DNA from: Chloroflexota bacterium
Lineage (GTDB): Bacteria > Chloroflexota > Chloroflexia > Thermomicrobiales > JADLAZ01
DNA length: 16,484 bases
Reading direction: 5' to 3'
Assembly: GCA_020849725.1 (NCBI GenBank)
Contig: JADLAZ010000041.1
Coordinates: 1-16,484 of the forward strand
Below the pieces are notes generated by a model. It searched no databases, had not been told where the DNA came from, and saw only the letters and a list, made by a program, of their open reading frames with translations. Each line of letters starts with the position of its first letter. Position 1 is the first letter of the stretch. This document shows, piece by piece, positions 2,614 to 15,728 of the stretch. A program made the translations under genes and the position numbers.

Positions 2614-3654
2614 ATGCCAGTGGCTTCTGCCGACCGACTCCGCGCCATGACCGAGACCGTCTTCCAGGCCGCCGGTGCCACACCGTCGATCGCTGCCTCG
2701 GTCGCCGACGCCCTGATCCTGGCCAATCTGGCCGGGCACGACTCCCATGGCGTCATGCGCATCCCCGCCTACTGCGGCCAGATCAAACGCGGCCAACTCA
2801 AGCCGGCGGTCGAGCCAGTGGTCGTTAAGCGGCGCGGTGCCACCGCGCTCATCGACGGCCAGGACGGCTTCGGCCAGTTAGCCGGCCGACTCGCCACCGA
2901 TGAGGCGGTGGCACTGGCGCGGACGCAGGGCGCGGCTGCCGTCGGTGTCGTCAATTGCATGCACGTTGGCCGGTTGGGTGAGTATCCGGAGCGCGCCGCG
3001 CGCCAGGGTGTGCTCCTGCTCGTGACGGCCGGCAGCATCGGCAATCCTGGCGCGCGCGTCGCGCCCTTTGGCGGACGCGCGGGCGTCCTGGGTACTAACC
3101 CGTTCGCGATCGGCCTGCCGGCCGGACAGCGCCCGGCGATGATCGTCGACTTCGCGACGACTGTCATCGCTGGCGGCAAGGTGGAGGTCGCCCGCGCCAA
3201 GGGTGTCGACGTGCCAGCCGGGGCGCTCCTCAACAAGCACGGCCAGCCGACGACAAACCCGAATGATCTCGCCGATGGCGGCACGATGTTGACCTTTGGC
3301 GGTCACAAAGGCTTCGGCCTGGCGATGGCCGCCGCCGCACTGTCGCAAGGCGTCACCGGCGAGTTGAGTCTGCCGGGCGGGCCATCGCCGATGGGCTTCT
3401 TCCTGTGGGCGGTCAACACCAGCACGTTTACCGCGGCCGCTGACTACGGGCAGCGCGTCGACTGGATGATCGACCAGGTGAAGGCGGTGCCGCCGGCGGA
3501 TGGCGTGGCCGAGGTGCTGGTTCCTGGTGAGCCAGAGCGGCGGGAGCGCTCCCGCCGCGAGCAGGCGGGTGTGCCGGTGCCCGACGCGACCTGGCGCGAG
3601 ATCAAGCGCACCGCCACCGAGCTAGGCGTGCCGGAGGCCGTGCCGAACCTGTAG
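2614..3654 (+). CDS. Ldh_2 family (malate/L-lactate/ureidoglycolate) dehydrogenase
   Basis: The product is an NAD(P)-dependent 2-hydroxyacid oxidoreductase of the Ldh_2 (MDH/LDH type 2) family, unrelated to Rossmann-fold lactate dehydrogenases. The 346 residues show GHDSHGVMRIPAY (41-53), the GFGQ segment (85-88), NCMHVGRLGEY with the family histidine H117, LGTNP (159-163), DFATTVIAGGK (179-189) and GGHKGFGLAM (229-238). The protein is full length for the family. AGGAGG lies 6 bases before the ATG. The HxGRLGxY form points to the hydroxycarboxylate dehydrogenase branch rather than ureidoglycolate dehydrogenase, but the substrate is not decidable. It is the first gene of a probable three-gene plus-strand operon. 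One oddity is that the usual acidic residue in the helix after GGHKG(Y/F)GL appears to be alanine. Confidence 0.9.
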   Translation: MPVASADRLRAMTETVFQAAGATPSIAASVADALILANLAGHDSHGVMRIPAYCGQIKRGQLKPAVEPVVVKRRGATALIDGQDGFGQLAGRLATDEAVALARTQGAAAVGVVNCMHVGRLGEYPERAARQGVLLLVTAGSIGNPGARVAPFGGRAGVLGTNPFAIGLPAGQRPAMIVDFATTVIAGGKVEVARAKGVDVPAGALLNKHGQPTTNPNDLADGGTMLTFGGHKGFGLAMAAAALSQGVTGELSLPGGPSPMGFFLWAVNTSTFTAAADYGQRVDWMIDQVKAVPPADGVAEVLVPGEPERRERSRREQAGVPVPDATWREIKRTATELGVPEAVPNL

Positions 3655-3767: not shown

Positions 3768-5477
3768 GTGATCCGCAGCACCATGATCGCCAGCCGCAGC
3801 GAGGTCGTCGCCGAGCGCGGCGTCGTGGCCGGTGGCCATCCGGCCGAGGTGGAGGCTGGCGTGCGCATGCTCATGCGTGGCGGCAACGCCATCGACGCGA
3901 TCGTGGCCGCCGCCTTCACCGGTTTTGTGGTCGAGCCGGCCTCCTGCGGCCTGGGTGGCTATGGGCGGCTGGCTGTCGCCATCCCCGGCCAGGATGGCTT
4001 CCTGACAATCGATCACTACGCGCGGGCGCCGCTGCGCGCGTCACCGACCATGTTCCAACCAGACCCGTCGCAGCCGGCCATGTACTACGGCTGGCCGCGC
4101 GTGCTTGGCCAGCGCAATGAGCGCGGCCCGCTAGCGCCGGCGACCCCGGGCGCGGTGGCCGGTCTGTGCGAGGCGCAGGCCCGCCTCGGCCGACTGCCGC
4201 TGGCGGAGGTGATGCAGCCGGCGATCGAGGCCGCTGAGGCCGGGCTGCCGGCCACCTGGAGCATCATTCTCCATCTGGCTGGGCGCCTGTCTGACATCCA
4301 GGCTGAGCCAGATGCAGCGGCGGTGCTGCTGCGCGATGGGACACTGCCGCGCATCGGCGCGCCCGGTGTTCCCGGCGACCGGCTGCGCTTCCCCGGCCTG
4401 GCGACGATGCTCCGCGCCATCGCCCAGTCCGGGCCAGCCGCGTTCTATACAGGGCCAATCGCCGCCGCCATCGAGCGGGCAACGATCGGGCGCGGCGGGC
4501 GGCTGTCGGCGGCCGATCTCGACGCCTACCGGCCCAAAGTGCTGCGCGAACGGCCGGCGCGCTACCGTGACTGGGACTATGTCACTGCTAACGACCAGGT
4601 CGGCGCCGAGGCGCTCTCGATCCTGAACAACTTCGACCTGGCCGCCCTGGGACCGACCAGCGCCGGCTACTACCACCTGGCCGCCGAAGCTTTCGGCCAC
4701 GCCTTCGCCGACAATATGCGGCACTATGGCGACCCCGATGTCACGCGCAGTCCCGTCAATGGTCTGGCCAGTTGCGCCTTCGCCCAGGCGCGAGCGCGCG
4801 ACATCCACCTCGACCGAGCCGCGCCGCGGCCGATCGTGGCCGGCAATCCATGGCCGTTCGACGATGGCGCACTCGCGCCGACGAGCCTGCCGCCGGTGGC
4901 GTCGGTCGGTGGCATTGCCGGCACCAGCCAGATGGTCGCCGCCGATCAGGATGGCATGATCGCCAGCCTGATCACCAGCCTCACCAGCGCCTTCGGCTCG
5001 CTCGTCTACGTGCCCGAGGGGGGCTTCTTTCTCAACAACTGCATGCAGAACTTCGACCCGCGGCCTGAGGCCGCCAACGCCATCGCGCCGGGCAAGATGC
5101 CGATCTTCGCGGTGCCAGCACTGGCGGCTCGTCGCGACGACGGTGCGGCCTTCGGCGCGGCCGGCTCGGGTGGCTACCGCATCCTCAGCGGCGTGCTGCA
5201 CACGTTTCTCAACACGGTCGACTTCGGACTGCCGCTCCAGGCGGCGGTCGACGCGCCGCGGGTACACTGCCAGGGCGAAGCCACCTTTGTGGACGACCGC
5301 ATCAACCCGGCCGTCGTCGAGGCGCTGGCGGCGCTCGGCCACGACATCGTCGTCCAGGCCAGCGAGCCGGGTGCGACACCCTTTGGCCGGGTGTGCGCCG
5401 TCAGCCGCGATCCGAGTACCGGCCGGCTGCATGCAGCGTCGGGACCGGCCTGGGGCAGCGCGGCGGCGGGCTGGTGA
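3768..5477 (+). CDS. Gamma-glutamyltransferase-like Ntn hydrolase
   Basis: The product is a member of the gamma-glutamyltranspeptidase/acylase family, made as a proenzyme that cleaves itself so that a threonine becomes the N-terminal nucleophile. The 569-residue protein aligns with GGT throughout: RGGNAIDAIVAA (37-48), GPAAFYTGPIA, GDPD, then GTSQMVAADQDG, whose T386 is the predicted nucleophile. That gives subunits of about 385 and 184 residues. The oxyanion segment GSGGYRI is also present. The pocket that recognises the gamma-glutamyl group is very different: the position of E. coli Arg114 is Y84, and the Asn, Gln, Asp and Ser-Ser ligands and the PPPSSGG motif are replaced. No signal peptide is visible, so it is probably cytoplasmic. 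The start is GTG at 3768 with GGAG 9 bases upstream; ATG at 3783 is an alternative. The substrate is probably not glutathione. Confidence 0.88.
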   Translation: MIRSTMIASRSEVVAERGVVAGGHPAEVEAGVRMLMRGGNAIDAIVAAAFTGFVVEPASCGLGGYGRLAVAIPGQDGFLTIDHYARAPLRASPTMFQPDPSQPAMYYGWPRVLGQRNERGPLAPATPGAVAGLCEAQARLGRLPLAEVMQPAIEAAEAGLPATWSIILHLAGRLSDIQAEPDAAAVLLRDGTLPRIGAPGVPGDRLRFPGLATMLRAIAQSGPAAFYTGPIAAAIERATIGRGGRLSAADLDAYRPKVLRERPARYRDWDYVTANDQVGAEALSILNNFDLAALGPTSAGYYHLAAEAFGHAFADNMRHYGDPDVTRSPVNGLASCAFAQARARDIHLDRAAPRPIVAGNPWPFDDGALAPTSLPPVASVGGIAGTSQMVAADQDGMIASLITSLTSAFGSLVYVPEGGFFLNNCMQNFDPRPEAANAIAPGKMPIFAVPALAARRDDGAAFGAAGSGGYRILSGVLHTFLNTVDFGLPLQAAVDAPRVHCQGEATFVDDRINPAVVEALAALGHDIVVQASEPGATPFGRVCAVSRDPSTGRLHAASGPAWGSAAAGW

Positions 5478-6238
5478 TGGCGATGGGACAGGGCACGAAG
5501 CTGGCGCTAGACCTGGTGTTTGGCGCGGTCATTCCGATCGCCGTGCTGAACTTCCTGACGACGCCACTCGGCGCGCCGCTCGCCTATGTTGTCGCCGCGC
5601 TCGTGCCGGTCGGTTGGATCGCCGTCGATCTGCTGTTCATCACGCGCGCCTTCAACTTCATCACCAGCTACATCGGCCTGTCGGCAATCGTCAGCGGCGC
5701 GCTCGCCTTCTGGTTCGTCGACGGCCTGCTGTTCGCCCTCAAAGACAGCGCCAGTTTCGCCGTCGCCGTGACGGTCTTCGCCGGTTCTCTGCTCGCCGGC
5801 CGGCCGCTGCTCCAATACTTCTTCGCTCAGGTGGTGCGGCCGGACACGCCCGCGAAGCACGCCACGCTGCACGCGTTTCTGGGGGAGCCGCCGTTGCGCC
5901 GCGCCGTGGTTGCTGGCACAGCCATCGTCGTCGCCGTCAACTTGACCCTGGGCGCGATCAACTTCTGGCTGAACCGAAGCATTGTCGTCGCGCCGTTCGG
6001 CGTGGAGGCGTTCAACCAGCAGGTCGCGCAGGTCAACGCCATCACCCGGCTGCTCTTTCCTGTGCCGAGCATCGCTGGCTTCGCCCTGGCGTTCTATCTC
6101 GTCTTCCGGGCGGCCTATCGGCTGCTGCCGGTCGCGCCGGGCACGCCGGCCTGGGATGCCGACTTCTGGGCGCTGATGGACAAGCGCGCCAGCGATGCCG
6201 GCAGCGCGCCACCGGAGAGCGCGTCGGGCGGTTGGTAG
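5477..6238 (+). CDS. VC0807-family integral membrane protein
   Basis: The 253-residue hydrophobic protein has about six predicted membrane segments (roughly residues 6-25, 32-52, 58-80, 85-105, 138-162 and 185-215). The N-terminal half (DLVFGAVIPIAVLNFL, then a second helix, then FNFITSYIGLSAIVSGALAF) resembles the VC0807 family, whose function is unknown. The ATG at 5477-5479 shares its A with the TGA of the GGT-like gene (TGATG), so translation is probably coupled. GTG at 5474 and ATG at 5483 are possible alternative starts. It is the last gene of the plus-strand group and converges with the DUF4177-like gene. A transport or membrane role linked to the hydrolase is a guess from position only. 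Confidence 0.75.
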   Translation: MAMGQGTKLALDLVFGAVIPIAVLNFLTTPLGAPLAYVVAALVPVGWIAVDLLFITRAFNFITSYIGLSAIVSGALAFWFVDGLLFALKDSASFAVAVTVFAGSLLAGRPLLQYFFAQVVRPDTPAKHATLHAFLGEPPLRRAVVAGTAIVVAVNLTLGAINFWLNRSIVVAPFGVEAFNQQVAQVNAITRLLFPVPSIAGFALAFYLVFRAAYRLLPVAPGTPAWDADFWALMDKRASDAGSAPPESASGGW

Positions 6239-6305: not shown

Positions 6306-6533
6306 TCAGGCCTTTGGCCGCTTGAAGTACAGGAGGCTGCCGGCGACGCCGGCCATCTCCCAGCCCGAGTCACCAAGCTGGCTCAGGACCCGGCGCACCC
6401 GGACCTGCGTCGCATCGCCGCCATTGGTGGCCGACAGCGCCTTGCGGTCCGGACCGGCCTGGTCCCAGTATTCGACATAGGCATCGGTGGTGTCGGTTGA
6501 CACCACGCACATCTCCCATTTTCGCCGCTCCAC
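6306..6533 (-). CDS. Small DUF4177-like protein
   Basis: The 75-residue product starts MERRKWEMCVV and ends LGDSGWEMAGVAGSLLYFKRPKA. The pattern of an initial KWE strand, a helix with VLSQLG..GWEMAGV and a closing YFKRP is typical of DUF4177 proteins, small alpha/beta proteins of unknown function. A GTG at 6533 is preceded by GGGAGGAG at 6548-6541, 7 bases away, which makes it a much better start than the longer frame opening at 6674. The gene is monocistronic, between the converging VC0807 gene and the divergent PHP gene. Confidence 0.7.
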   Translation of the reverse strand: MERRKWEMCVVSTDTTDAYVEYWDQAGPDRKALSATNGGDATQVRVRRVLSQLGDSGWEMAGVAGSLLYFKRPKA

Positions 6534-6591
6534 GCCCCGTCTCCTCCCAGCGAGTACTCCACCTGCGCGGCGCAGACGCGCCGGAAGGCGT

Positions 6592-6597
6592 ATCATA
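6592..6597 (-). promoter_or_regulatory. Possible -10 box for DUF4177-like gene
   Basis: TATGAT on the minus strand (5 of 6 matches) lies 58 bases upstream of the GTG start. No clear -35 element is present at the usual distance, so the call is tentative. Confidence 0.3.
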
Positions 6598-6711
6598 CTG
6601 GCCGCGCCCGTTGAGAGCGACGGCATGCTGTCGCGTCGGGCGTTGTGCGGCGCGCGGCGCGCCGGTTCGGCCACATCGATCAGTCAGTGCCGTTGGCTCA
6701 GCGGGTTCAGC

Positions 6712-6717
6712 AGGAGG
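6712..6717 (+). promoter_or_regulatory. Shine-Dalgarno site that fixes the PHP gene start
   Basis: AGGAGG sits 6 bases before the GTG at 6724. It selects that codon over the in-frame candidates upstream (from 6487), which would add an arginine-rich, non-homologous extension and overlap the DUF4177-like gene. Confidence 0.85.
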
Positions 6718-6723
6718 TCGTCA

Positions 6724-7623
6724 GTGCAGTCACTCCCGTTCGCGCAGCCGGGTCGCTTCTTCCGTGGCAACCTCCATACCCACTCCACCCGGTCGGACGG
6801 GCGCCTGTCACCAGACGACGTCATGCGGACCTATCGAGACGCCGGCTACGATTTCCTGTCGCTGACCGATCACTTCCTCGACCGGTATGGATTCCCGATC
6901 ACCGACACGACGGGGTTCCGCACGGCGGGGTTTACCACGTTGCTAGGCGCCGAACTGCACGGGCCGCGCACGGAAGTGGGCGAGCGCTGGCATCTGGTGG
7001 CGGTTGGCCTGCCGCTCGACTTCGCCCCCGCGGGCGCCGACGAGACGGGGCCGGCGCTGGCAGCCCGCGCCAGCGAAGCCGGCGCCTTCGTCGGCATCGC
7101 CCATCCCGCCTGGTACAACCTGACGCTAGCTGATGCGCTGACGATCGAGAGCGCCGATGCAGTCGAGGTCTACAACGAGACGTGCGCGCAGGAGAGCGAC
7201 CGTGGCGACAGCTGGCATCTGGCCGATATGATGCTGGCCCGTGGCCGCCGCCTCTCGACCTATGCCGCCGACGACGCCCATTTCGGCGGCCGTGCGGACA
7301 GCCTGGCGGCCTGGGTGCAGGTCAAGGCGGCGGACCTCACGCCGGCGGCGTTGCTCGCCGCGCTCAAGGCTGGTCACTACTACTCCAGTCAGGGACCGAC
7401 GATCGAGTCGATTGAGGTCGACAACGGCACGCTGCGCGTCGCCACGTCGCCGGCCCGCCTCATCGTCGTCAGCGGCCGGGCCGCGGCATCCCGCGTCGTA
7501 CGTGGCCCAGCAGTGATGGAGGCGGCGCTGTCGGTGGAGCCGTTCGCCGGCAGCTACTGTCGCGTGACCGTCATCGATGAGAGCGGCCGGCGGGCCTGGT
7601 CGAACCCGATCTGGCTCGCCTGA
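6724..7623 (+). CDS. PHP-domain metallohydrolase (CehA/McbA-like)
   Basis: The product is a PHP-domain phosphoesterase/hydrolase of the CehA/McbA type, with metal ligands in the standard order: H18-T-H20 with D25 (NLHTHSTRSDG), T48-D49-H50 (LTDH), E77 (AELHG), H127 (GIAHP) and D184-A-H186 (AADDAH). The PHP barrel occupies roughly residues 12-230. The last 70 residues look like a small beta domain (PARLIVVSGRAA...CRVTVIDESG), as in related proteins. Without polymerase or histidinol-phosphatase context the substrate is unknown; the family includes carbaryl and phosphoester hydrolases. The 299-residue protein starts with GTG. It has no signal peptide and is probably cytoplasmic. It converges with the GT87 gene, with 12 bases between the stops. 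Confidence 0.88.
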   Translation: MQSLPFAQPGRFFRGNLHTHSTRSDGRLSPDDVMRTYRDAGYDFLSLTDHFLDRYGFPITDTTGFRTAGFTTLLGAELHGPRTEVGERWHLVAVGLPLDFAPAGADETGPALAARASEAGAFVGIAHPAWYNLTLADALTIESADAVEVYNETCAQESDRGDSWHLADMMLARGRRLSTYAADDAHFGGRADSLAAWVQVKAADLTPAALLAALKAGHYYSSQGPTIESIEVDNGTLRVATSPARLIVVSGRAAASRVVRGPAVMEAALSVEPFAGSYCRVTVIDESGRRAWSNPIWLA

Positions 7624-11043: not shown

Positions 11044-12297
11044 ATGGCGTACCGCGTGTTCCGGCAACTGGGCCTGCTGATCGTGAGCCTGATGCTGCTG
11101 ACGCCCCTGCTGGCCGCGCACGGGGTCAGCGCGCAGACGACCACCGGCGGCCGCTACTTCGCCGACGATGCCTTCCGTCGCATCTGGGAGCGGAACGATC
11201 GCCCTGTCGAGCAAGTCCAGACTGACCGCAGTTGGACCTGGGGACCGAACTCTCCCTTCAATGGCAGTGAGCAGTACAAGCAATCGCCCTATGGGCGGCG
11301 TCTCGTCCAGTACTTCGACAAGGCGCGGATGGAGATCAACAACCCCAACAAGGACAAGGACGACTTCGACTACGTGACGAACGGGCTGCTTGTGCGCGAG
11401 ATGGTCAGTGGCAACGTCTCGCTCGGCGACAACCCCGACGAGATCGAGAAGCGCACGTCGTCGATCGAGCCGGTGGCCGGCGACCCCTCGAACGTCAATG
11501 ACCTCGGGCCGACGTACGCTAGTTTCAAGGAGATCGCCTCGCTGAACAGCGACCACCCGGCGCAGAACCGGATCGGTCAGGCGGTGCGGCAGACCTTCAA
11601 CCGCCGCAGCCAGATCGGCGAGTTGCCGACCGAGCAGGCGGCGCTGGCGACCTACTCCAAGATCGCCGTCTTCGAGCCGATCTTGAAGCACAACATCCCG
11701 GATAAGTTCTGGACATTCATCACGCAGACCGGCCCAGTCTGGGAGAATAACCGGTTGGCGCCCCAGGGCTCGCTGTTTCCACGCTGGGAGTTCTTCATGG
11801 GACTGCCGGTCACCGAGCCGTACTGGGTGCGCACGAAGGTCGGTGGCATCGAGCGCTGGGCGATGGTGCAACTGTTCGAGCGCCGCGTGCTGACCTACAC
11901 GCCCACCAATCGACCCGGCTTCGAGGTCGAGATGGGCAACGCCGGGCAGCACTACTACAAGTGGCGCTACGAGCTGAATGACAGCGGCACAACCGTTGAG
12001 CCAGGCGACGACGGCTCGCGGCCGAAGATCATGGAGTTGGAGCGATCGGCACTCACCGCCACGTCGGCGCGCATCCAGTGGACGACGAACATTGCCGCCA
12101 CCAGCCGGGTCGAGTACGGCACGACCCAGGACCTTGGCACCAACATCGGTCAGACCAGCGCCTACCTCACCGAGCATGACGTGCTGATCGATCGGTTGTT
12201 GCCAGCCACCGTCTACTACTATCGCGTCATGTCGCGCGACCAGAACGGCCGCATCGTCGACGACTCCATTCACTCCTTCAAGACGCTGCCGTCCTGA
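11044..12297 (+). CDS. Secreted protein, paralog A, with C-terminal Fn3-like domain
   Basis: The 417-residue exported protein has a Sec signal peptide (MAYRVFRQLG, then a hydrophobic core, cleavage probably after GVSA at residue 30). Residues 38-310 form a module I cannot name. It has SWTWGPNSPF (63-72), RLVQYFDKARMEI (86-98), TNGLLVREMVSG (112-123), GLPVTEPYW (253-261), VQLFERRVLTYTPTN (275-289) and VEMGNAGQHYYKW (295-307). The same motifs occur in the same order in the gene at 13937-15580. Residues 327-415 look like a fibronectin type III/purple acid phosphatase N-domain (ARIQWTTNIAATSRVEYGT, PATVYYYRVMSRD). There is no membrane anchor, so it is probably extracellular. No catalytic residues are evident. 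The start is supported by AGGAGG 5 bases upstream. Confidence 0.85.
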   Translation: MAYRVFRQLGLLIVSLMLLTPLLAAHGVSAQTTTGGRYFADDAFRRIWERNDRPVEQVQTDRSWTWGPNSPFNGSEQYKQSPYGRRLVQYFDKARMEINNPNKDKDDFDYVTNGLLVREMVSGNVSLGDNPDEIEKRTSSIEPVAGDPSNVNDLGPTYASFKEIASLNSDHPAQNRIGQAVRQTFNRRSQIGELPTEQAALATYSKIAVFEPILKHNIPDKFWTFITQTGPVWENNRLAPQGSLFPRWEFFMGLPVTEPYWVRTKVGGIERWAMVQLFERRVLTYTPTNRPGFEVEMGNAGQHYYKWRYELNDSGTTVEPGDDGSRPKIMELERSALTATSARIQWTTNIAATSRVEYGTTQDLGTNIGQTSAYLTEHDVLIDRLLPATVYYYRVMSRDQNGRIVDDSIHSFKTLPS

Positions 12298-12526: not shown

Positions 12527-13795
12527 TTAGCTGCTGGCAGCGATCAGTTGCTTGGCAGCGTTGATCGGGATGGCGAAGAAGACTCCCTGGGCGTTGCGCA
12601 GTCCGGCGAAGTTGACGCCAACCACGCGGCCGGCGGCATCGAGGAGCGGGCCGCCGGAGTTGCCCGGATTGAGGCTGGCGTCCATCTGGATGACGTCGGT
12701 CGTGTAGGCGCCGGATAGATTGACGCGGGCGCGGCTGATGATGCCGCGCGTGGCGCTCAGGTCGACGCCCAGCACATTCGACAGCGGGTAGCCGAGCGCC
12801 ACGACTTCATCGCCCTGCCGGACTGCATCTGAGTCGCCGAGCGGCAGCACCGGCAGGCCGCCACCGCCCTCGGCTTTCACCACCGCCAGGTCGAGGCCGC
12901 CGTCAGCCTTCACCAGCTTTCCCGGAAAGCGGCGCCCGTCCGGCAATGAGATGACGATGGAGCGCGCGTCACGCACGACGTGCTCGTTCGTCAGCACACG
13001 GCCGTCGGCCGAGATAACGAGGCCGGTGCCGCTGCTGAAGCCGCGTGGTGTGTCCACCAGCAGGAAGGCCACGCCGGAGCGTGCCGCGGCAATCAGGTCG
13101 GCCCGCGCCGCCTGGGCGGCCGGCGCGGGCGCGGGTGCGGGCGTCGGCAGCGGGGCGACAATCACTGATCGCTCCGGCAGGCGCGCCAGCGGGCGCGCGC
13201 CAGGGAAGCGCTGACCAAACAGATCACCGGCGCGTCGCAGCCGCGCGCCGGCATCCTCCATCTGCTGCATCGCGTCCAGCTGCCGGCTCTGATCACCAGC
13301 GATGTAGGCCGCCAGCAGCCGGGCGACGCCATCGGCGGCCTGCTCGGTTGCCCCGACCAGGAGTCCATTCACCTCTTCCAGGTTCGGCGGCGGGGTCAGC
13401 TTGATCGCTTCCTCGCGGATCGCCTTCAGCTCGGCGCCGCGCTCGGCCAGGCGCGTCTGGAACAGATCGCGATCAATTATGCCCTGGCGGTGGTCGTCGA
13501 TGATCCGGTTCGCGTCCGTCACCGCAGCGGCCAACTTGGCCGAGACCGCGCCACTGCCGCGCGCGTACTCGACCGACTTCGCGTCCGCCGTCGGCGTCGG
13601 CCGGGCGCCGCCGGTCGCCGGGTTGGTCGGAGTCACGCGCAGAGCGGTGTTCGTAGCGGCAATAGCCGCCTGAACGGTCCCGTAGACGTCAATCTCAGGC
13701 TCAGCATTGCGCTGGCAGCCCGCCAGCCCCAGCCCGAGGACGGCCGTCAGCGCCAGACAGCTCCATCGACATCGCCCGCCAGACCGGGTGGCCAT
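12527..13795 (-). CDS. Lipoprotein trypsin-like serine protease (DegP-type catalytic domain)
   Basis: The 422-residue S1-family protease is predicted to be membrane anchored on the outside. A lipoprotein signal ends in LAG-C27. Residues about 75-205 form a helical, coiled-coil-like domain (NRIIDDHRQG, LAERGAELKAIREEAIK), followed by a Pro/Ala linker (about 215-228). The C-terminal protease domain carries the triad H272 (LTNEHVV), D302 (GGLDLAVVK) and S380 (LNPGNSGGPL). There is no PDZ domain, unlike DegP/HtrA. All three catalytic residues are present. The ATG at 13795 has GAGG 6 bases upstream; GTG at 13825 is less likely. It follows paralog B on the same strand after 141 bases and may be co-expressed. 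Its substrate is unknown; envelope quality control or processing of the neighbouring secreted proteins is possible. Confidence 0.88.
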   Translation of the reverse strand: MATRSGGRCRWSCLALTAVLGLGLAGCQRNAEPEIDVYGTVQAAIAATNTALRVTPTNPATGGARPTPTADAKSVEYARGSGAVSAKLAAAVTDANRIIDDHRQGIIDRDLFQTRLAERGAELKAIREEAIKLTPPPNLEEVNGLLVGATEQAADGVARLLAAYIAGDQSRQLDAMQQMEDAGARLRRAGDLFGQRFPGARPLARLPERSVIVAPLPTPAPAPAPAAQAARADLIAAARSGVAFLLVDTPRGFSSGTGLVISADGRVLTNEHVVRDARSIVISLPDGRRFPGKLVKADGGLDLAVVKAEGGGGLPVLPLGDSDAVRQGDEVVALGYPLSNVLGVDLSATRGIISRARVNLSGAYTTDVIQMDASLNPGNSGGPLLDAAGRVVGVNFAGLRNAQGVFFAIPINAAKQLIAASS

Positions 13796-13936
13796 CGCTG
13801 ACCTCGCAGATAGGCCGCGTGTCACTCGTCAATCGAAGGCCATTATGCCCGCACTGAGCCTACCAGGCGTACGGTTCTCGGGCGTTGATCGTTTCATCGT
13901 CCAGTGCTCTGAGGTGGTCACACACCGGGTGGACGG
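13796..13936 (-). promoter_or_regulatory. Gap between paralog B and protease, possible -10
   Basis: The 141-base gap contains CATAAT on the minus strand (13847-13842), 5 of 6 matches to a -10, but no good -35 at 16-18 bases. A TTGACG further downstream has no -10 at usable spacing. A separate protease promoter is possible but not shown. No T-tailed terminator for paralog B is visible. Confidence 0.25.
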
Positions 13937-15580
13937 TCAGGATGGCGCGGTCAGACGGAAGATCGATTGGACCGGCGTGCCATTCGGTCGCTGGTAGGCG
14001 CGCGTGTACTGGCAGCACCCCTCGACGGCCGTGATCGGCACGCGCGGAGCCGGAAATAGCCCGCCATGGTACACGACCAGGGCGTCATCAGCCACGAACG
14101 AGGTTGTGCCCACGCGCGCCTCGACAACGGCCTGCAAACGCGACGCCCCTTCGCCGGCAATGATGACGGCATCGAACGGTGTCACACTCCCTGGCTGCAG
14201 CGTCCCTTGTCCGGCGCGGGTCGCGCCGATGGCGACCAGGCCGCCACAGGCATCCAGAGCGTGGATCCGCACCATCGCCAGGTTCGAAAAGGGGTTCGGG
14301 CCAGCATAGCGAAGCTGACCCGAAACACGCGTCACACCAAGGCCATCCACCTCGCCGCGCAGATCCTCAATCGCGAAGCCACCGGCGAGTCCGCCGGACG
14401 GGCGACCGCCCGGGGTCCGCACCTCCACCCGCCAGTCGGCCAGCGCCTCGGTTGGGGGCAGCGCGATGCGGAAGCCGGCGACCTGGCCATTCGGCCAGAA
14501 CTCGCGGTCGGTGAACCCGGTGCTGAGGCCGAGGCGCCGTCCATCGGCCGTCAACCGCGTGACGACGACCTCGACCGGCGAGCGCGAGTCGCCGTCGTTC
14601 CGGATGCGGCCGGCGACGGCGCGGCGGTCACCGACGACGTGCAGGGCGCTGCCCAAGATCGTCAGGCGGTGCTGGGCACGTCCGGCCAATGGCAGGTCAG
14701 GGACGGCTGGACAGGCCAGCTCCGGCATCACTGGCGCTGGCGCCGCGCGCCAGGCCAGATGATGTTGGCCGACATTGCCCATCTCAACCTGGCTGCCGGC
14801 CGGATTCGACGGAGTATAGGTCAGCACCCGCCGCTCGAAGCCCTGCACTAGCACGTCGCGCAGCTCACCAGCAACCCGCACGCGCGCCCAGTATGGCTCG
14901 GTGATCGGCAGACCGGTCGTGGCATACCAGGGTTCGAACGGCGCGACCTCGCGGAGTTGGCCCTCGGTGTTCGGCAGGGGTTCGCCACTGAAGTAGGCGC
15001 GGAACACGTTGGCGAGCCGGTGCTGCGTCTCCGGCACCAGGTCGGATGTGCGGACGCCATGGCGGGAGAGAACGCCATCTGCGCCGATGCTACCGCTGCG
15101 GTCGATGACATTCGTGACGGGCGTGCCTTCTTCCAGCGCGGGCCGCCCGATCAGGAGGCCAAGCGCAGCGTAGGTGGGCGCCGTCGCATCGTCGAGATCG
15201 CCGGCGATCGGAATGTCGGCCGGTGCGCGCGTGTCGTACCGGTGATCGCCGGTCTGGACCAGACCGGTCATCAACTCCCGCGCCAGCAAGCCACTGGTCA
15301 CCGCCGCACCAGGTCTGGTCAGTTCCATACGGCCCTTGTCGAAGTACTGCACGAGACGCTCGCCGCCTGGACTCTCGGCGTACGGCTCGCGCAGCCCAGC
15401 GGTGCGCGGCGCTGGCCCCCAGATCCAACTGTGAGGCGCGGTCCCGACGGCCACGGCCGCGTCTGTCGCCGACCACAGGTGCAAAAACGCCGGGTCCGCA
15501 AACGCGGCGGACTGACCGGCAACGGACGTGGGCAGCGCCATAACAACCACGAGCGCTGCCGCGATGATGTACCCGCGCAT
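13937..15580 (-). CDS. Secreted protein, paralog B, with FxLYD-like domains
   Basis: The 547-residue exported protein has a Sec signal peptide (MRGYIIAAALVVVMALPTSVAG). Residues about 27-278 match the module of the gene at 11044-12297 motif by motif: SWIWGPAP (51-58), RLVQYFDKGRMEL (75-87), TSGLLARELMTG (95-106), GLPITEPYW (223-231), VQGFERRVLTYTPSNP (245-260) and VEMGNVGQHHLAW (265-277). The rest is different: two beta-sandwich domains resembling FxLYD (AVAGRIRNDGDSRSPVEV with FWPNGQVAGFRI, and VSGQLRYAGPNPFSNLA with TLQPGSVTPFDA), which are usually non-catalytic extracellular domains. Cysteines occur as C290, in ALDACGG and as CC near the C terminus. The start at ATG 15580 follows GGGAGAG; longer frames lack a signal peptide. 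The function is unknown. Confidence 0.85.
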   Translation of the reverse strand: MRGYIIAAALVVVMALPTSVAGQSAAFADPAFLHLWSATDAAVAVGTAPHSWIWGPAPRTAGLREPYAESPGGERLVQYFDKGRMELTRPGAAVTSGLLARELMTGLVQTGDHRYDTRAPADIPIAGDLDDATAPTYAALGLLIGRPALEEGTPVTNVIDRSGSIGADGVLSRHGVRTSDLVPETQHRLANVFRAYFSGEPLPNTEGQLREVAPFEPWYATTGLPITEPYWARVRVAGELRDVLVQGFERRVLTYTPSNPAGSQVEMGNVGQHHLAWRAAPAPVMPELACPAVPDLPLAGRAQHRLTILGSALHVVGDRRAVAGRIRNDGDSRSPVEVVVTRLTADGRRLGLSTGFTDREFWPNGQVAGFRIALPPTEALADWRVEVRTPGGRPSGGLAGGFAIEDLRGEVDGLGVTRVSGQLRYAGPNPFSNLAMVRIHALDACGGLVAIGATRAGQGTLQPGSVTPFDAVIIAGEGASRLQAVVEARVGTTSFVADDALVVYHGGLFPAPRVPITAVEGCCQYTRAYQRPNGTPVQSIFRLTAPS

Positions 15581-15632
15581 GTTGCCAGCTCTCCCTCGGC
15601 GACCCACGTACCAACTGGGGGCGCCAGCATGC

Positions 15633-15662
15633 AGTGTAGACCCACCGATCCCGGCCGGGCAA
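15633..15662 (-). promoter_or_regulatory. Candidate promoter of secreted paralog B
   Basis: On the minus strand TTGCCC (15662-15657) and TACACT (15638-15633) are 18 bases apart, each matching consensus 4/6. A start near 15626 would give a leader of about 46 bases. The -35 lies inside a 16-base palindrome (15654-15669). Confidence 0.35.
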
Positions 15663-15669
15663 GCCCGGC
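15654..15669. repeat. 16-bp palindrome over a predicted -35
   Basis: GCCGGGC-AA-GCCCGGC is a perfect 7-base inverted repeat with a 2-base centre. It overlaps the possible -35 of paralog B and lies 30 bases upstream of the coxG -35. It could be an operator or just a GC-rich hairpin. Confidence 0.4.
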
Positions 15670-15699
15670 GCCGTCGTCGAGACCGCGCGAGGTCGCCTC

Positions 15700-15728
15700 T
15701 TGTCCGCTCCCGGACCTGGGCGTACAAT
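15700..15728 (+). promoter_or_regulatory. Sigma70-type promoter for cox operon
   Basis: TTGTCC (15700-15705) and TACAAT (15723-15728) are 17 bases apart and match consensus 4/6 and 5/6. Transcription would start near 15735. The leader to the coxG ATG is then about 115 bases and very GC-rich, with room for structure, but no known riboswitch was recognised. Confidence 0.5.

Follow-up and report, generated by a model that had tools for sequence, protein, structure and literature searches.

The element considered here is a gene at positions 3768 to 5477 of contig JADLAZ010000041.1 (assembly GCA_020849725.1) from a Chloroflexota bacterium; the whole stretch of DNA analysed, 16,484 nucleotides, is referred to below as the window. 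The gene encodes a member of the gamma-glutamyltransferase (GGT) family in which the catalytic threonine is kept and the residues that hold the gamma-glutamyl donor in canonical GGT are replaced. We consider it rather probable, from sequence comparison, that the product is a cytosolic, self-cut amidohydrolase of the GGT fold with an N-terminal threonine nucleophile (an N-terminal nucleophile, or Ntn, hydrolase), and that its pocket, which is partly aromatic, accepts an acyl group other than gamma-glutamyl. Our direct evidence consists of sequence identities, clade membership, conservation, a fold model and gene neighbourhoods, from which self-cleavage, amide hydrolysis, the loss of gamma-glutamyl specificity, the substrate class and the geometry of the pocket are predicted.

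3768..5477, + strand: the gene under study, encoding a GGT-family (PF01019) protein of 569 amino acids, with a GTG start
Residues 1-385 of this protein: predicted large subunit
Residues 386-569 of this protein: predicted small subunit

Assignment to the GGT fold, as originally predicted, is borne out by a full PF01019 domain in Pfam (residues 33-558, E-value 2.4e-95), and the catalytic threonine and oxyanion glycine pair of the superfamily are present. The score against the equivalog TIGR00066 (gamma-glutamyltransferase) is 257.8 bits, under the cut-off of 357.85, so that the protein falls outside canonical GGT by score. The original prediction had also proposed that a signal peptide is missing, and a simple hydropathy scan agrees: none was found, the best 12-residue mean at the N terminus being 0.67 as compared with 2.08 in E. 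coli GGT, and 0 of 32 homologues exceeded 1.9 within the first 30 residues. In a protein search, 1024 of the 7996 candidates scored were homologues at E≤1e-3, and the 120 listed are 56-96% identical.

Residues were compared using E. coli K-12 GGT (L084), aligned to the protein, as the ruler. The nucleophile T391 of E. coli corresponds to T386, and its neighbours T392 and H393 to S387 and Q388; the oxyanion glycines G483/G484 are kept as G468/G469. None of the six named donor ligands is conserved (R114 is replaced by Y84, N411 by T406, Q430 by C425, D433 by N428, S462 by F447 and S463 by A448), and further sites also differ (S404 for T409, I402 for T407 and Y470 for Ser485). Both the retained catalytic residues and the lost ligands had been named from the sequence beforehand, and every residue so named was right; the ANDQVGA segment, likewise named, comprises residues 274-280 of the translation. 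For the functions of donor and maturation residues in the GGTs of E. coli and Bacillus we rely on PMC8062742, which is also the source of the mutant data cited to it below.

4017..4019, + strand: Y84, aligned with E. coli R114, a ligand of the alpha-carboxylate
4923..4925, + strand: T386, predicted N-terminal nucleophile after cleavage between G385 and T386
4971..4973, + strand: I402, aligned with E. coli T407, a threonine that takes part in autoprocessing of canonical GGT (PMC8062742)
4983..4985, + strand: T406, at the aligned site of E. coli N411
5040..5042, + strand: C425, at the aligned site of E. coli Q430
5049..5051, + strand: N428, aligned with E. coli D433, a ligand of the alpha-amino group
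5061..5063, + strand: R432, a possible new charged ligand
5106..5111, + strand: F447-A448, at the aligned site of E. coli S462-S463
5169..5177, + strand: G468-G469, the oxyanion hole by alignment, followed by Y470, which aligns with E. coli Ser485

The altered pocket is common to a clade of related proteins, which we represented by 57 rows: the window, 32 of the 120 listed homologues and 24 genome loci. T386, R86, N428 and R432 are invariant, Y84 (Gly in L010), F447 (Tyr in one row) and S404 occur in 56 rows, and Q388 in 55. G468/G469 are present in 56 rows, the remaining one (L023) having a gap where its sequence is cut off. Two sites vary within the clade, namely that of C425 (27 Ser, 16 Ala, 9 Gly and 5 Cys) and that of T406 (31 Thr, 20 Ser and 6 Gly). 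Because T386, N428, Y84 and F447 are kept in 56 or 57 of the 57 rows, the pocket change is, judging from the alignment, a maintained signature across the clade and not decay or drift of one gene. Other clade-specific columns are Y65, Y107, E261, Y320, R432, Y470 and H478, of which Y470 is also found in the sister clade and R432 in 4 of its 8 rows.

In a quick maximum-likelihood tree, the window belongs to a 38-row group with a support of 100 in the Shimodaira-Hasegawa-like approximate likelihood ratio test (SH-aLRT). Its sister, an 8-row group (support 99), has Phe at position 84, Tyr at 447 and either Trp or Leu at 428. Together the two form a 46-row group (support 100) that leaves outside E. 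coli GGT, the LmbA2991-like rows and the rows resembling extremophile GGTs, in which the Arg site is Ser and the Ser pair is His-Thr. The tree holds 79 of 116 rows, several of them long, and carries SH-aLRT values without bootstrap, so we make no claim as to deep order; 17 of the 32 homologues, L004 and L022 are absent from it and were placed by identity (at least 56% to the window protein) and signature. The hosts of the clade, nearly all metagenome-assembled genomes (MAGs), are named as Pseudomonadota, Chloroflexota, Thermomicrobiota and Actinomycetota, with Anaerolineales and Thermomicrobiales also named. In the phylum of G001, at least 1 of 301 genomes reached an E-value of 1e-150, namely the centre itself, with at most 4 candidates scored in each of the 21 rows shown. 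No description of the clade and its pocket was found in the literature searched, which mostly excluded subscription papers and is thus no proof of absence.

We propose that the precursor most likely cleaves itself between G385 and T386, and that the freed T386 would attack a carbonyl, most likely that of an amide, while the backbone of G468-G469 would hold the oxyanion and water would hydrolyse the acyl-enzyme. The donor pocket would no longer recognise a gamma-glutamyl unit by its alpha-carboxylate and alpha-amino group; R86 or R432, near the pocket in sequence, may act as conserved cations. Given the replaced ligands (Tyr84, Thr406, Cys425, Asn428, Phe447/Ala448 and Tyr470), the acyl group should be non-zwitterionic and suit a partly aromatic site. 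The gene lies beside an oligopeptide-type importer in several bacterial relatives, which suggests scavenging of an imported amide.

A number of observations bear on this proposal, several of them speaking against it, and the first of them concern gamma-glutamyl use. E. coli D433N loses transpeptidation and gains cephalosporin acylase activity, yet it retains 82% of hydrolysis, and B. subtilis D445N loses 90% (PMC8062742). The B. licheniformis mutants S460A and S461A are reported to be more active than the wild type, while the matching E. coli and human Ser mutants do not retain activity according to the same paper; E. coli S463K/D is uncut and inactive (PMC8062742). GGTs of extremophiles, in which Arg114 has given way to Ser and the Ser pair is missing, still act on gamma-glutamyl substrates as hydrolases, with no transfer (PMC8062742). 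Furthermore, R86 and R432 could serve as substitute carboxylate ligands, and the window has neither the importer nor a tandem sister-type gene, nor homologues of the MmgE/PrpD and DAO genes found near some relatives (tblastn). At the Arg site, activity was undetectable in R109F, R109E, R114L and R114D, R109L and R109M retained 4-5% of hydrolysis and R109S (B. licheniformis GGT) retained 85% (PMC8062742). Taken together, these data make Tyr at the Arg site, in our assessment, the strongest single argument against gamma-glutamyl use and the Ser-pair loss alone a weak one, and it is the combination that persuades.

The other observations concern self-processing. The site of E. coli T407 is Ile (35 rows) or Cys (22 rows) throughout the clade, and T407 is needed for GGT maturation, E. 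coli T407S/D/K being defective and the equivalent B. licheniformis T415A inactive (PMC8062742). Beyond both clades, Ile occupies this site in 6 rows, each of which has His-Thr at the Ser pair in the manner of extremophile GGTs; GGTs of the His-Thr type, e.g., from G. thermodenitrificans, are active (PMC8062742). The site of T409 has Ser in 56 of the 57 rows and Thr in one. In H. pylori GGT, T398S, which introduces the clade's Ser at this site, is about fivefold less active with maturation intact, and B. licheniformis T417S GGT is still processed given time (PMC8062742). In the fold model of the protein, the segment 375-386 has low confidence. We nevertheless regard a cut between G385 and T386 by the precursor itself as likely. 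The original prediction, a self-processing Ntn hydrolase with a non-gamma-glutamyl substrate, is upheld in part.

Among the alternatives, the protein might still hydrolyse gamma-glutamyl substrates, perhaps slowly, and lack transpeptidase activity, as the intracellular extremophile GGTs do, with the glutamate held by other residues. We regard this as unlikely, since the extremophile enzymes have Ser at the Arg site, where R109S and R109F differ as described, while the clade has Tyr, and since the clade stands apart from the Ser/His-Thr rows in the tree.

The substrate might instead be of oxalyl type, the protein being an HpxW-like oxamate amidohydrolase or an LmbA-like C-C hydrolase, with a 2-hydroxy or 2-oxo acid supplied or used by the product of the upstream Ldh_2 gene:

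2614..3654, + strand: dehydrogenase of the Ldh_2 family (malate/lactate/ureidoglycolate type), 113 bp upstream of the gene under study (PF02615, 1.3e-99)

This appears still less probable to us. In profile scoring, the HpxW chains reach 110.1 and 58.6 bits, below the full-length canonical chains 4y23 (327.6) and 2e0w (280.3), and the higher of the two also falls short of the 214.2 bits of the E. coli large chain. An Ldh_2 homologue was detected in 0 of 53 related loci (E≤1e-3), the window protein and the L086 match share 33.3% identity, and the Ldh_2 protein itself matched five NCBIfam models, each below its cut-off. An AllD-HpxW pair acting on oxamate or ureides, which the upstream Ldh_2 gene had suggested, was dropped as the leading explanation because of the HpxW scores and the two results on Ldh_2. 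As for LmbA, the LmbA2991-like L073 and L081 (the latter scoring 698 bits against 6j3a) lie in another starred clade of the tree and carry Gln for R114, Arg for Q430 and Thr-Thr in place of the Ser pair, so membership in the LmbA type was rejected.

That the protein is catalytically inactive, or a precursor that stays uncut and serves in binding or as a structural component, seems to us quite improbable: the Ile or Cys at a site required for canonical maturation and the lost donor ligands would fit, but decay would not retain T386, a hydroxyl at the T409 site and the oxyanion glycines, and the B. licheniformis T417S enzyme does process given time.

To map the gene neighbourhood, reading frames were filtered by GC content at the third codon position and named proteins were searched for by tblastn. 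It is possible that the Ldh_2 gene is an operon partner of the gene under study. Immediately downstream is another gene:

5477..6238, + strand: VC0807-family membrane protein (NF041646, 107.9 bits against a cut-off of 65)

Its start codon, an ATG at 5477, overlaps the stop codon (TGA) of the gene under study, which suggests translational coupling of the two. Four window neighbours (Ldh_2, VC0807, PPOX and 6487-7623) were searched for by tblastn (E≤1e-3) and matched in 0 of 53 related loci, and the importer context is thus evidence from relatives only. The tblastn queries for the importer, tandem, MmgE and DAO genes were taken from clade loci, which favours near relatives. An oligopeptide-type ATP-binding cassette (ABC) importer, comprising an SBP_bac_5 gene, two permeases and fused ATPases, lies directly upstream in 6 of 25 clade loci (L002, L004, L006, L012, L013 and L022), not counting weak partial matches (<120 bits) in L010, L011, L016 and L018; the SBP_bac_5 binding protein alone occurs in L001 and L003. 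A sister-type gene lies directly downstream in at least 7 of the 25 (L001, L002, L003, L004, L006, L012 and L022), a lower bound because the sequences of L020 and L023 stop at the gene and that of L005 stops 646 bases past the reading frame. In 6 of 12 further genomes there is a second match that scores in the sister-type range (about 500-596 bits). MmgE/PrpD homologues are present in 6 of the 25 loci (L002, L006, L007, L008, L010 and L022) and DAO homologues in 2. Among 19 Dehalococcoidia-type loci, tblastn found the SBP_bac_5 protein in none and weak OppB/OppC matches (112-120 bits) several kb away in 4 (L029, L032, L036 and L041); L045 has a weak MmgE match.

A more specific version of our proposal is that Tyr/Phe84, Phe/Tyr447, Tyr470 and Asn or Trp/Leu428 of both clades form a cation-pi cage for a cationic-headed acyl group, and that the paralogue pair is a two-enzyme or mixed-assembly amidase module. 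The acyl group could be, e.g., an N-methylated or guanidino acid, imported via the neighbouring peptide-type transporter. To our knowledge, such a paired-paralogue module is unlike any known GGT. One hint is the L002 cluster, with a DJ-1/PfpI-AraC-type regulator, a flavin adenine dinucleotide (FAD) oxidase of the DAO type and an MmgE/PrpD gene. Another is a thiamine pyrophosphate (TPP) enzyme in L010 (6007-9626), above the curated cut-off for 5-guanidino-2-oxopentanoate decarboxylase, which lies directly upstream and overlaps the start of the clade gene; however, L010 is the sole clade row with Gly for Tyr84. We consider this version speculative and improbable.

Six genomes were searched for PF01019, with 4 to 13 matches per genome, certain genes being counted as two pieces. 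The genomes of L003 (G002) and L002 (G005, an alphaproteobacterial MAG that also holds L073 and L081) have 12 and 13 matches, with at least 6 pocket signatures each. Among the matches fetched from the six genomes, rows with the canonical signature are L054 in G002 and L055 in G005. A separate Chloroflexota (Dehalococcoidia/SAR202) group of the GGT family (L027-L043, L045 and L051) has the motifs GFPM, TTH, MMWFD and LNNMT and lacks the canonical donor ligands.

Elsewhere in the window, the proteins encoded at 11044-12297 (+) and 13937-15727 (-), in opposite orientation, are related (36% identity over 298 columns) and have in common the motifs SWxWGP and ERRVLTYTPxNxxGxxVEMGNxGQH; Pfam matches just one of them, through a purple-acid-phosphatase N-terminal domain near its C-terminal end. 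Between them, at 12527-13825 (-), is a trypsin-like protease whose N-terminal ~265 residues have no Pfam match (E≤1e-3).

Many proteins in genomes are called gamma-glutamyltransferase although they lack the glutamate-binding residues, and the clade supplies a conserved signature for one such group, naming positions that may matter for specificity. Given this conserved non-canonical signature, calling members of the clade glutathione hydrolase, for example, is probably a mistake. If our proposal is true, a new acyl specificity would join the GGT-fold enzymes with other chemistry.

Compared with canonical GGT (E. coli 2e0w, B. licheniformis 4y23 and B. subtilis 3a75), the protein has the same fold, nucleophilic threonine, oxyanion Gly-Gly and layout, with 27-30% identity in structure alignments; it differs in its six donor ligands (in canonical GGT Arg114, Asn/Glu411, Gln/Glu430, Asp433 and Ser462-Ser463), in Ile at T407, in the missing signal peptide and in its sub-cut-off TIGR00066 score. 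It also lacks the lid loop, as do the Bacillus GGTs according to PMC8062742. The closest solved structure by Z-score is the B. halodurans 'cephalosporin acylase' 2nlz (42.5, 31% identity). With the group of extremophile-type GGT, 2nlz and YwrD, the protein has in common an intracellular location, predicted in its case, and the absence of the lid loop (PMC8062742), and with extremophile-type GGT the Ile at T407 (6 His-Thr rows). However, where the extremophile type has Ser (for R114) and His-Thr (for the Ser pair), the protein has Tyr84 and Phe447-Ala448, and the two are separate in the tree. The C-C bond hydrolases LmbA and LmbA2991 have another pocket signature and group in another clade; LmbA is, according to PMC5519988, a GGT homologue with a different reaction. 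HpxW (5hft) is likewise a GGT-fold amidohydrolase, converting oxamate to oxalate and ammonium (PMC5270733), and differs in that its profile score, the sole basis of this comparison, is below that of canonical GGT. GGT homologues with other chemistry, such as HpxW and LmbA, have thus already been published, and an enzyme of the kind that we propose is of a known type.
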